A DNA stretch of 64,000 nucleotides from a virus: positions 31,305-95,304 of IMG/VR virus record IMGVR_UViG_3300025164_000635; one strand, 5' to 3'. Position 1 is the first letter of the stretch. Each line of letters opens with the position of its first letter. The notes under the pieces are model-generated. The model saw only the letters and a program-made list of their open reading frames with translations, searched no databases and was not told the origin of the DNA. Shown here one piece after another: positions 18,962 to 62,118 of the stretch. The position numbers and the translations under genes were made by a program.

Positions 18962-19065
18962 AACAACTGAATATCGCAGAGAGGGGCTAGGCCATAGGCT
19001 TAGCTCTAATGCGGCATACCGGTCTCAAGCCCGGTAAACCCATGTCGCATAAAGGAGAAAGAGTC
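18962..19065 (+). ncRNA. Structured intergenic leader B
   Basis: After the stop comes ACAACTGAATATCG, shared with other spacers of the cluster. Hairpin 18983-19007 pairs GGGGCTAGGCC with GGCTTAGCTCT (11 pairs including G-U). Hairpin 19009-19050 pairs ATGCG/CGCAT and TACCGG/CCGGTA around TCTCAAGC, similar to the ACTAGAG loops of leaders C-E. AAAGGAG follows. Confidence 0.55.
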
Positions 19066-19257: not shown

Positions 19258-19372
19258 CAATCGAATATCTGCCTTCTTCCAGGAAGGCAGAGCAGGCTCA
19301 TTCTCTCGGAGGAGGATGGGCCTGCTCTGCTTTCTGGGACTAGAGCCCAGAGCAGAGAAAAGGAGAATCACC
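19258..19372 (+). ncRNA. Structured intergenic leader C (three-hairpin type)
   Basis: It opens with AATCGAATATCTG. Hairpin P1 pairs GCCTTC/GAAGGC (19271-19288). P2 is an 11-bp perfect stem, GCAGAGCAGGC (19287-19297) with GCCTGCTCTGC (19320-19330). P3 is CTGGG-ACTAGAG-CCCAG (19334-19350). The P2 right arm can instead pair CTCTGC with GCAGAG (19352-19357) around P3, so two folds exclude each other. AAAAGGAG then follows. Confidence 0.65.
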
Positions 19373-19567: not shown

Positions 19568-19678
19568 TCGTCAATCTACTTCTGTCTTCCCCTCCGGGAA
19601 GGCAGAGGCTTGGGTATCACGGTATCCAAGCCTCTGCCTTTCGGGACTAGAGCCCGAAGCAGAGAAAAGGAGAAACCC
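19568..19678 (+). ncRNA. Structured intergenic leader D (three-hairpin type)
   Basis: It has the same order of elements as leader C. P1 is CTTCC/GGAAG (near 19584-19600). P2 is a 13-bp stem, GGCAGAGGCTTGG with CCAAGCCTCTGCC (about 19600-19638). P3 is TTCGGG-ACTAGAG-CCCGAA. CTCTGC of P2 can also pair with GCAGAG after P3. The stems differ in sequence from leader C but keep pairing, while the P3 loop ACTAGAG is unchanged. Confidence 0.65.
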
Positions 19679-19948: not shown

Positions 19949-20080
19949 CAAGCTATAGACAACCAAATATCGCTTCACCCCTGCTCCCTCATGGGAGCAG
20001 ACCAGAGCCACTCTCCTGCGAGGGCGGCTCTGGTCTGCTTCTGGGACTAGAGCCCAGGCAAACAGAAAGGAGTAGTAGCC
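19949..20080 (+). ncRNA. Structured intergenic leader E (three-hairpin type)
   Basis: It opens with ACAACCAAATATCG. P1 is CTGCTCCC-TCAT-GGGAGCAG. P2 is a 14-bp stem, AGCAGACCAGAGCC with GGCTCTGGTCTGCT. P3 is CTGGG-ACTAGAG-CCCAG, identical in loop to leaders C and D. The ribosome site GAAAGGAG follows. The alternative pairing seen in C and D is weak here. Confidence 0.65.
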
Positions 20081-21172: not shown

Positions 21173-23575
21173 ATGTCGTTCACGTCATTTCGCTCTACCC
21201 GTAAGGTGGTTGTGGTGGACCGCTTCGGGCGACCCACCGGAGAGGAAAGGATTCTCTCTAACAGCCCGATCGACGCCCTGTTCCCTGACGAGAAGATCGT
21301 CATGGTGAACTGGAAGTACGAGGGCGCGAAGGCGCCCACCGCTGAAGAGTTGCGCCGGCCGATCCGCCACGGCGGCAACGAGTACCGTGGTGACTGGGCC
21401 TGGGGCAGCAGCGTCAAGCGCGGATACACTGTGGGCCTGACCCGTGACCTGCTGGTGGACACGGGATTGCTGAACTGCTGTGAGGACGCCCACCGATTCG
21501 GTCGGGCGTTCCTTGCCAACGGCCTGTATGGGGCCGGGAAGGGTGAGCTGCACATCAAGTTCGTGCCCGAAGGGACTCAGACCCTGGCCGGCCCGGTGGC
21601 GGACGGCTTCGGGTATGTGAGACGCTCGGTGGCCGAGAAGATGAATGCCGGACACGACAAGATCAAGTTCGGCACCGCGCGCGACTCGTCGCACTGGTGG
21701 CAGCGCATTCCCTGGACATCCGAGATCCAGGAAGAGCTGGAGCCGCTTCTGCGTGACAACCTGGTGGAGGCTGGTGACCCCGGGTTGTGGATGTTGAGGC
21801 AGTTAGGCGACCGCGATCAGGGTCGCCGCCACCTGGTCGAAGCCGAGCCGTTGATGGCTGAGCACCCGTATGTGGCGAACATGCTCATGAGGGTGTCCTC
21901 AGACATCCTGGCCCGGGCGGCCACGACGGTCCCCCTGAATCACGCGGTGAAGGTTACTGTGCCCGCGAACGTCCCCAACATCGCTGTGGACGGGAAAACA
22001 CTGAGCACGCGCTACCCGATCGATGCCAAGAACTCCATCCGGGCGAACAACAACACGCTCAACACCGTGGAAGCCGAGATGGAGCGGATTGCCGAGATGG
22101 AGCGGATTGCCCAGATGGAGGTCATTCAGTATGGCATGACCTCCATGGGTGACCATCCCTTCTCGGCTAAAGGCTGCGCCGGGATCGTTGACGATGATCT
22201 CCTCGATGCCGACTTCGTGTTGTGCACGAAGGACATCAAGATGGGTGACAAGAAGTTGGTGGACATCAAGGCGGAGATCGTGGTCTCGGTGACCCAGTGG
22301 TTTGCCCAGGGCGAGGCGGTCGGTGTGAATACGAAGTTCTGGGCCGACCAGGGCGGTGATTGCGACGGCGATCTGGCGTTGATCGCCGATTGCAGTGAGT
22401 TGCCCCGCCTGTGGGAGGCGGTTAGCGGGTTTGGGCTCCAGCCCACGCCCAAGCTCATCAAGACTCACACGAAGCTGGAGGACGAGGACATCCGGGGTGA
22501 GTTGGCTGAGAAATCCATGCTGAATGTGGTCGGCATGGCAGTCAACCTCATGGCTGCGACGTTTGTCACGGCCAACCGGGAAGAGATGGCCCACCGCCTG
22601 GGCTATGCGAGTGAGGCTGCCCTGGATAACGCCCTGAATTACTGGGTGAAAGCAGGCACGGATCTCTTCAAGGTGTCTGTCGACACCAAGCAGCTCATGC
22701 AAGATCTCTCTCGGTTCCAGAGCAAGCTGGTCAATGTGCTCGGTACGCTGCCGCCGTGGGTGAGCTGGCCCAACGACTGGGCCTTCACGCACGGCGTCCC
22801 GTCCTTCTGGAACGAGGACGAGATGGGTCACCTGAAGAGCGACGATCCTGTTCGGAAGAATGCCGTTCCTACCAATTCCTGGTACGACGGGACCATCGTC
22901 CAGATCATGAGGCTGACCCTGCTCGCCCTCAGCGCGATGCTGAGCCATACCCTGGCTGTGCGGCCGCTGCATGACTTCCAGAGATGGGCCCTGGTTGTGC
23001 CGGACAGTGTTCTGGGGCCCGCGATCGGTCTCCAGAAGATGTTCGTAGCCGAGTCCCAGCGCGTCAACTGGGAGTGGCCCCAGGATGTCGTCCGCTTCAG
23101 CCAGTGGTGGGCCGAGAAGGTCGCCACCTGGAAGAACGAGATGGGCCTGGATGACACCCTAGCCTGCGCTGCTATCTGGCGCGCGGCCCATGACATGCGG
23201 AGCAAATACGCCGGGGCGTCGTCTGTGTTCATGGCCTTCCCGGAAGAAGTACTGGATATTCTCCGGGATAAGCCCGGCCTCTCCAAGTTGGTGTCTGGTG
23301 TCATCCTCGGCCTGCCCGAAGTGACCGAGGAGACGGTCATCCAGGGCACCGTTCGGGAGTTCAAACGCAAGGACTCACAGTCCGGCCGGACCGTCATCCG
23401 CAAGTGCTTGGTGGACGGTAACTCGGGCCTACCCCATATGCCCGACATCAACTACCCGGGCGCGATTGCCGTCTTTGCTTCGGATCACCCGTCGCCCGAG
23501 AATGGGCTGAAGGTGACCGTCAAGGTCACCCGGCGCACCAAGAAGTCCTGGTTCGCTGATTGCATCTGCCAGTAG
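21173..23575 (+). CDS. Putative double-psi beta-barrel RNA polymerase (YonO/QDE-1-like)
   Basis: This 800-aa protein carries GGDCDGDLALIAD, with D396, D398 and D400 forming the DxDGD metal-binding motif. The preceding stretch QGEAVGVNTKFWADQGG resembles the beta-prime sequence around NADFDGD. Upstream, ADGFGYVRRSVAEKM (DGFG at 144-147) recalls the DGxG motif of two-barrel, single-chain polymerases, and basic residues such as K333 precede the catalytic barrel as expected for the first barrel. Such enzymes are known from phages (YonO, crAss-like) and eukaryotic RdRPs. It would transcribe phage genes independently of the host. Overall similarity beyond the motifs cannot be judged here. Confidence 0.65.
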   Translation: MSFTSFRSTRKVVVVDRFGRPTGEERILSNSPIDALFPDEKIVMVNWKYEGAKAPTAEELRRPIRHGGNEYRGDWAWGSSVKRGYTVGLTRDLLVDTGLLNCCEDAHRFGRAFLANGLYGAGKGELHIKFVPEGTQTLAGPVADGFGYVRRSVAEKMNAGHDKIKFGTARDSSHWWQRIPWTSEIQEELEPLLRDNLVEAGDPGLWMLRQLGDRDQGRRHLVEAEPLMAEHPYVANMLMRVSSDILARAATTVPLNHAVKVTVPANVPNIAVDGKTLSTRYPIDAKNSIRANNNTLNTVEAEMERIAEMERIAQMEVIQYGMTSMGDHPFSAKGCAGIVDDDLLDADFVLCTKDIKMGDKKLVDIKAEIVVSVTQWFAQGEAVGVNTKFWADQGGDCDGDLALIADCSELPRLWEAVSGFGLQPTPKLIKTHTKLEDEDIRGELAEKSMLNVVGMAVNLMAATFVTANREEMAHRLGYASEAALDNALNYWVKAGTDLFKVSVDTKQLMQDLSRFQSKLVNVLGTLPPWVSWPNDWAFTHGVPSFWNEDEMGHLKSDDPVRKNAVPTNSWYDGTIVQIMRLTLLALSAMLSHTLAVRPLHDFQRWALVVPDSVLGPAIGLQKMFVAESQRVNWEWPQDVVRFSQWWAEKVATWKNEMGLDDTLACAAIWRAAHDMRSKYAGASSVFMAFPEEVLDILRDKPGLSKLVSGVILGLPEVTEETVIQGTVREFKRKDSQSGRTVIRKCLVDGNSGLPHMPDINYPGAIAVFASDHPSPENGLKVTVKVTRRTKKSWFADCICQ

Positions 23576-60897: not shown

Positions 60898-62118
60898 ATG
60901 GGAACTCAACGATTAAGCGTGCGAGAAAAAGCCTTTCCCTACGACGAATACAAGGGGCGCTATTCGATGTTGGCTGTGGTGCAGGCGAGTGGCATTGCCA
61001 AGGCCGGCCCACAGCACAGCCGAACGGGCGTCCAGTTCTTCTGCCCATTTCACGCGGACACGAAGAGTGCGAGTTTCCACATCCGGTCGCGTTTCGGCCA
61101 GTGTTTCGGCAGTTGTGGATGGAAAGGAGACATCTTCGACTTCATCCGAGAGTGGTGGAGGCGGGACGGCATCCCCTTCCCGGAAGATCATTTTGAGAAG
61201 GCCGCGGTTGAGTGGCTGGAGAAGGCCGAGCGGGACAACCTGCTGCGCTCTGGCGTCGTTCCCGATGTCAACGGCCGGGACTGGTCTATCGAGGCTCACT
61301 GGCCGTACATGCGCGCCGACGTATACCACCAGAACCTTCTCCAGGACGAGAATCACATCTTGTACTTCCTGATGAGGGGTTGCAACTGGGATACCATCAC
61401 CCGGCACTACCTAGGGTACAATCGGGGCAATCACCGATATACCATCCCGATCCGGAATCATATTGGACTGTACGGCGTGAAGATGCGTCGGGATGAGGAG
61501 CACTACCGGGCGACCTTCGCCGAGAAGGGTGACGAGTGGCTGCGGCACCAAATGAGTGTGATGCGCTACCACCGGCTGGAGCATGCCCAGACGACCGGCG
61601 TCCTTCCGGTTGAGCCGACTGAAGAGGATGTATACAATTCATTCTGTGCCAAGTACATCTGGGGTAAAGGAGACTGTGTCTGGTTCTGGAACGAGGACCG
61701 TCTACTGGTTCGACCCCAGACCTATCTCCCCTACGTCTTTCTCACAGCCGATGAGATGTCTGGTCTCATCCTAGAGCAGTTGGGCTACGCAGCGGTGGCA
61801 ATGGGCAGTGACGCCAGTTTCCCGAAGGGCGACACCATCCTGCACTACCGAAGTGAGGGGAAGACATTCCAGATCAGGATAGCCGACGTATTCCAGCATG
61901 TCATGAAGGTGTACCTGGTAGCCGACAATGATGATTCAGGCTTGGCCGGCGCAAAGCGGAGAGCATTGGCCATTGGGCCATCCAAGTGTGAGATTCTCCG
62001 TGTGCCGGACAAGCAGTTCAAGGACCCCGCGGACTTCTACGTTGGAGAAGGGGAGACGGCTTTCCGGCACTGGCTGGTAGGCATCCCAACATTAAGTGAG
62101 TTGGGCCTGAGTCGTTAG
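60898..62118 (+). CDS. dnaG: DnaG-type primase
   Basis: This 406-aa protein has an N-terminal CHC2 zinc finger (C49, H52, C69, C73; CPFH...CFGSC) followed by DIFDFI, and a C-terminal TOPRIM signature ADNDDSGLAGAKRRA (D343, D345). It makes RNA primers. Shorter than bacterial DnaG, lacking the helicase-binding domain. The start ATG 60898 lies directly after the helicase stop. Confidence 0.85.
   Translation: MGTQRLSVREKAFPYDEYKGRYSMLAVVQASGIAKAGPQHSRTGVQFFCPFHADTKSASFHIRSRFGQCFGSCGWKGDIFDFIREWWRRDGIPFPEDHFEKAAVEWLEKAERDNLLRSGVVPDVNGRDWSIEAHWPYMRADVYHQNLLQDENHILYFLMRGCNWDTITRHYLGYNRGNHRYTIPIRNHIGLYGVKMRRDEEHYRATFAEKGDEWLRHQMSVMRYHRLEHAQTTGVLPVEPTEEDVYNSFCAKYIWGKGDCVWFWNEDRLLVRPQTYLPYVFLTADEMSGLILEQLGYAAVAMGSDASFPKGDTILHYRSEGKTFQIRIADVFQHVMKVYLVADNDDSGLAGAKRRALAIGPSKCEILRVPDKQFKDPADFYVGEGETAFRHWLVGIPTLSELGLSR

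Follow-up and report, generated by a model that had tools for sequence, protein, structure and literature searches.

Does the 800-codon frame at this phage locus encode an RNA polymerase that carries both double-psi barrels in a single chain? The window analysed here is a stretch of 64,000 nucleotides (bases 31305-95304 of the 95,304-base virus record IMGVR_UViG_3300025164_000635), and the frame, P0001, had drawn attention by a DCDGD motif and an upstream DGFG. Judged from its family relationships, P0001 is probably a divergent member of the YonO/QDE-1 superfamily of two double-psi-barrel polymerases, built as a single chain. Translation of the window confirmed the frame as first described: it runs unbroken from the ATG at 21173 to the stop at 23575 (+ strand, 800 aa), with DGFG at residues 144-147 and DCDGD at residues 396-400, and the sequence upstream of it is AAAGGAGAACAGCCATG. 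When genes were called heuristically on the whole record of 95,304 bases, its coding score (141.5) ranked fourth among 131 genes, below those of a 3153-, a 1304- and a 1348-aa protein only. A 357-aa frame antisense to P0001 (window 21899-22972, - strand) was taken as the mirror frame of a GC-rich coding sequence.

According to the same gene calling, P0001 is the first large gene of a rightward block. On its left lies a leftward block with matches to the terminase large subunit (phrog_2, E 5e-8) and the portal protein (phrog_64, E 4e-12); on its right there are helicase, DNA primase and ParB-like matches. A 100% identical copy of P0001 is present on contig LDXR01000011.1 (107,839 bases) of CSP1-5, an NC10 MAG from an uncultured sediment bacterium, and an NC10 host is presumptive because the link comes from MAG binning. 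Searches with the terminase and portal proteins found no sister phages. In MT835540, a phage with a relative of the helicase, D.DGD was found in no frame of 200 aa or more within the 31 of 49 kb covered.

The only Rfam match at gathering score within the window is a Twister-P5 self-cleaving ribozyme (RF02684; window 18975-19034, +; 50 bits, gathering score 37.6, E 2e-7), located in the leader of a small frame about 2 kb upstream of the polymerase gene. Three successive small genes are directly preceded by a repeated leader of ~43 nt (CTCTGC..GGGACTAGAGCCC..AAAAGGAG; window 19325-19367, 19632-19674 and 20032-20074, +), with inverted repeats upstream seen by eye. Exact copies of the leader core GGGACTAGAGCCC were found at these three places only; with up to 2 mismatches allowed, the core was not found before the polymerase gene.

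The initial annotation had pointed to RNA polymerase profiles as a check on its reading. That part found no backing: among the matches of P0001 in PHROGs, Pfam and NCBIfam there was no polymerase family, whether RNAP beta/beta-prime or the jumbo-phage or crAss-like RNAP families, and nothing above a curated cut-off. Equally, the libraries placed the protein confidently in no unrelated family, the best Pfam match being Takusan (E 0.0075, below cut-off). A PDB sequence search with P0001 gave no match, and a search of phages at E up to 1 gave no usable one. Two Acinetobacter phages matched by a core fragment at E up to 10 were set aside as chance (E 6, outside the catalytic motif). Scanning of IMG/VR viral contigs by peptide patterns revealed no convincing relative; one contig match (L003), which lies in a frame of 104 aa and depends on a stretch of 8 residues, was also taken as chance. 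In 95 genomes of the NC10 phylum, P0001 matched the identical MAG copy and, weakly, four other sequences (E 0.002-0.08); the best of the four (L017) was rejected, the opposite frame being taken by eye for an ABC-transporter binding protein. The joint profile A3, searched against 94 genomes of this phylum, recovered the identical copy and no further relative. AlphaFold2 produced no usable model (pLDDT 36 from the single sequence, 30 with an alignment including four YonO-like viral-contig proteins), and the two models neither support nor oppose a barrel fold.

The DCDGD motif (window 22358-22372, +), a predicted metal-binding aspartate triad within the block 394-435, is by itself a weak argument. 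D.DGD occurs in 4 of the 131 predicted proteins of the phage genome, one of them P0001. Of 399 long decoy frames, 29 contain it, a rate that is enriched because some of the decoys had been selected by the motif. When DNA was scanned for GGDxDGD-type sequences, at least 119 stretches were obtained; among the 80 that were translated, none was convincing as a relative, the best values being E 0.15 by BLASTP and E 0.02 with the YonO profile. It is the later family match, not the motif, that raises the candidate above chance.

This match was obtained in plasmids. Among 72,556 plasmid records, the two best matches of P0001 were homologous Pseudanabaena proteins (E 0.1 and 0.2), both aligned from residue 394 (GGDCDGD); the third and last (E 7) fell within a transposase. 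The best plasmid relative, Pseudanabaena WP_126390519.1, is an unannotated protein of 788 aa. Pairwise BLASTP of P0001 with this protein gave E 3e-8 over residues 394-713 (22% identity), a value for a single comparison chosen after the plasmid search; a second collinear piece, at residues 228-290 (E 0.19), paired EHPYV and RYPI in the two proteins. The Pseudanabaena protein matched 81 plasmid records, and all 40 listed are from cyanobacteria; its searches of phages (E up to 0.01) and viral contigs found nothing. Proteins of this family (L152-L163) are 788-1263 aa in length, and 38 of the 40 listed are called hypothetical protein, the other two ribonuclease H. Around the 12 cyanobacterial loci, HU-type, ThiF-type and Rho-N-domain genes are found nearby, each in two loci.

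A profile of 12 cyanobacterial proteins (two of them near-identical), aligned without P0001, scored P0001 at 16.8 bits (E 4.6e-5). No control among 500 shuffles and the genome's 130 remaining proteins exceeded 1.4 bits, and the best of 374 long decoy frames (30 with D.DGD) reached 5.4 bits. Block profiles were then made from ten cyanobacterial relatives without the P0001 row, their columns being drawn from the joint alignment. The N-terminal family block at residues 11-41 (..GRPTGEERILSNSPIDALFPDE; window 21203-21295, +) scored 9.4 bits, with 0 of 2000 shuffles as good (best 6.0). The RYP strand block at residues 273-291 (DGKTLSTRYPIDAKNSIRA, RYP at 280; window 21989-22045, +), the predicted start of the beta-prime-type barrel, scored 5.6 bits and was also ahead of all 2000 shuffles, narrowly (best 5.4); in local alignment it gave z 5.3, with 0 of 300 shuffles as good. 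The DxDGD block at 394-435 scored 10.6 bits (0/2000; best shuffle 5.3), and its short version was weaker in its own local alignment (7/300). Identity of P0001 to its relatives is 15-20%, and the likeness to the cyanobacterial family extends over the N-terminal block, the EHPYV/RYPI region, GxDxDGD and a C-terminal AAxWxAxH...AS.VF region. The relatives are on plasmids, whereas P0001 is on a phage record. These comparisons of sequence showed that P0001 belongs with the unannotated protein family of cyanobacterial plasmids.

The cyanobacterial family, in turn, is related to YonO-like proteins. HHalign of the family with 14 YonO-like phage proteins (four without the exact D.DGD string) gave E 1.8e-12 and a probability of 97.7, and in a search of a small set the YonO-like profile matched 9 of the 12 cyanobacterial members at E below 0.001. 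Against the PDB, a 7-member YonO-like profile found QDE-1 (1.3e-5) and RDR2 (1e-4). The solved relatives reached through this profile are thus QDE-1 and plant RDR2 (PDB 5fsw, 2j7n and 7eu0), which neither P0001 nor A3 matched directly; the A3 joint profile found no polymerase in the PDB. The Pfam RdRP family PF05183 was matched by 3 of the 11 A3 members (best 1.5e-5), P0001 not being among the three. Two YonO-like phage frames (L009:242-1744 and L013:411-2093) end within the catalytic motif, in its DxD (NGSDFD and SDADFDKY), and their matches resume downstream, in 3 and 2 pieces respectively, as if introns or inserted elements interrupted the codons of the active site; a GIY-YIG nuclease appears beneath the split YonO-like match of Bacillus phage BUCT083.

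Compared with the YonO-like proteins by HHalign, P0001 itself gave E 0.024 at residues 393-459. All 399 decoys scored worse (best 0.027), as did 150 of the 151 copies that had been shuffled or reversed. Run with hmmsearch, the YonO-like profile gave no significant match to P0001 and did not separate it from shuffles. In an ungapped alignment from residue 393, GMAVN (residues 454-458; window 22532-22546, +) pairs with the conserved GxxxN downstream of the triad in YonO-like proteins, and the GMAVN columns are invariant in alignment A4. The block profile and the HHalign result together bear out the earlier assignment of DCDGD to the beta-prime-type catalytic position. The case for polymerase homology is transitive, the firm link to YonO running through the cyanobacterial family. 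A predicted beta-prime-type catalytic barrel in P0001 is supported because profile matches lead from P0001 to the cyanobacterial family, from there to the YonO-like proteins and on to QDE-1, and homology of P0001 to the two-barrel polymerases is likely. The alignments established that the RYP strand, the DxDGD triad and the GxxxN after it are all retained in the putative polymerase, as is similarity in its C-terminal region.

PMC7824862 describes the partner barrel as contributing two basic residues. From their conservation we infer that the lysines of KG...D(L/I)(I/V)...K in the relatives may be these residues. Of the 15 relatives, 12 carry the two-lysine pattern (10 of the 12 cyanobacterial and 2 of the 3 phage proteins), the exceptions being Planktothrix, Phormidium and Avazak. 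It precedes DxDGD in all 12 and precedes RYP in the 10 with a readable RYP; the protein of Lactococcus phage P118 matches it a second time further on. In P0001, no lysine block was found in the usual place before RYP (residues 145-272). The upstream DGFG (window 21602-21613, +) is a candidate for the DGxG motif that YonO/QDE-1-type polymerases have in the beta-type barrel; the tetrapeptide is present, but its block profile was equalled by 555 of 2000 shuffles. MAFFT paired DGFG differently in A3, where it stands beside the TGDCHG motif of the relatives without statistical support, and in A4; the A4 pairing, with the D-x-x-G that comes later in the lysine region of YonO, was rejected (165/300 shuffles as good). 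Of the two-barrel polymerase originally proposed, therefore, the YonO/QDE-1-type homology is supported, by way of the cyanobacterial profile (16.8 bits against 5.4 for decoys), whereas the second barrel is unsupported and the lysine block absent from its usual place.

P0001 has 116 aa between RYP and DxDGD, compared with 40-46 aa in the relatives in which the pattern read both (11 of 15). The difference corresponds to an insert of ~70 extra residues within 296-381 (window 22058-22315, +), between RYP and the catalytic block. The sole match of P0001 to the two-lysine pattern, out of order (KG...K), is at residues 333-356 (KGCAGIVDDDLLDADFVLCTKDIK; window 22169-22240, +), after RYP and before DCDGD. 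The pattern occurred in 61 of 20,000 shuffles and in none of the 374 decoys, odds that flatter the match because the pattern was written after the resemblance had been noticed. A two-block profile was less clear (30/1500 shuffles and 3/374 decoys as good), and HMMER gave no hit for a two-lysine block in P0001. In local alignment of a longer lysine segment, 15-35 of 1000 shuffles were as good for the insert and 313-993 of 1000 for the usual place; over the whole of P0001, 28-60 of 200 shuffles were as good, with the insert as the best place in all three runs. A separate run with the longer cyanobacterial block in the insert gave 27/1000. The short cyanobacterial block was not recovered in the whole protein (285/300) or in the insert (314/1000), nor was the YonO version in the insert (199/300).

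These figures amount to a hint of a displaced lysine block at 333-356. It is conceivable, but on balance doubtful, that the barrels are interleaved, the two-lysine half-barrel having moved between RYP and DxDGD to give the order A1-B1-A2-B2 instead of A1-A2-B1-B2. In the literature searched, which consisted of titles and abstract openings with subscription papers mostly outside it, no interleaved natural two-barrel polymerase was found.

In a different explanation, P0001 would be a decayed or repurposed relative. It would have kept the beta-prime-type catalytic barrel and lost the partner barrel with its two lysines, so as to bind nucleic acid or nucleotides without polymerising, or a partner protein would supply the second barrel. 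Neither the DGFG block nor a lysine block in residues 145-272 is supported, and the stretch from DGFG to RYP is ~100 aa shorter in P0001 than in the Pseudanabaena relative, in keeping with such decay. However, DxDGD and the following GxxxN are intact, and a candidate two-lysine segment is present at 333-356; we regard decay as unlikely.

A second alternative is that P0001 is an RNA-dependent RNA polymerase or a primase-like replication enzyme, not a DNA-dependent transcription enzyme. The solved structures to which the YonO-like profile leads are those of QDE-1 and the RDR enzymes, and the name RNA-dependent RNA polymerase is attached to Mudcat gp94 of an Arthrobacter phage (E 2e-12 with the cyanobacterial profile, in a one-sequence search) and to 9 of its 40 listed phage matches. 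However, YonO strongly prefers DNA templates (PMC5467207), and the phage has a separate DNA primase match at window 60967-62115; we regard this alternative as highly improbable. That P0001 is an unrelated orphan with accidental matches is scarcely credible: D.DGD is common, the decisive plasmid match reached only E 0.1 and the low-pLDDT models provide no fold evidence, but three collinear blocks (N-terminus, RYP and DxDGD) each beat 2000 of 2000 shuffles, and the best of 374 decoys reaches about a third of the profile score of P0001.

If P0001 is a single-chain polymerase, as we think probable, the three aspartates of DCDGD would, as for YonO, coordinate Mg2+ and catalyse the addition of nucleotides along a DNA template; according to PMC5467207, the polymerase activity of YonO needs the aspartate triad. 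By analogy, P0001 would most likely transcribe part of the phage genome, perhaps the leftward structural module that starts close by. The initial annotation had suggested genes with shared leaders as possible targets; inspection of these leaders showed the Twister-P5 ribozyme in one of them.

The analysis adds a candidate single-chain polymerase from a phage linked to the candidate phylum NC10, a setting other than the firmicute and actinobacterial phages that yielded relatives here, and connects this phage gene with an unannotated family of polymerase-like proteins that many plasmids of cyanobacteria carry. A lysine block inside the catalytic barrel, if true, would be a natural rearrangement of the core common to cellular RNA polymerases. 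Interleaved barrels, if true, would mean that segments have been exchanged naturally within the core that transcription enzymes conserve most; they would test how far double-psi halves can be rearranged and make the assembly of a two-barrel polymerase directly testable.

Superfamily members encoded by phages are not new, because among 50,697 phage records YonO has matches in 36 and Mudcat gp94 in 250; YonO is the only phage member with tested activity in the literature covered. Like YonO of Bacillus phage SPbeta (phrog_8308), P0001 is a single chain of ~800 aa with RxP, DxDGD and GxxxN in this order; unlike P0001, YonO carries DGCG and RLPWVKG. Beside Mudcat gp94, AVGINAKVAERLSGADFDGD of P0001 aligns with AVGVNTKFWADQGGDCDGD (44% over 25 aa), with a single-comparison E of 0.009 for a 97-aa fragment and E 0.07 in BLASTP of the whole proteins. 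Mudcat gp94 differs from P0001 in that its RYP stands 46 aa ahead of DxDGD and its lysine block comes before RYP. In its predicted function, P0001 is a divergent variant of the already known YonO-like polymerases of phages.
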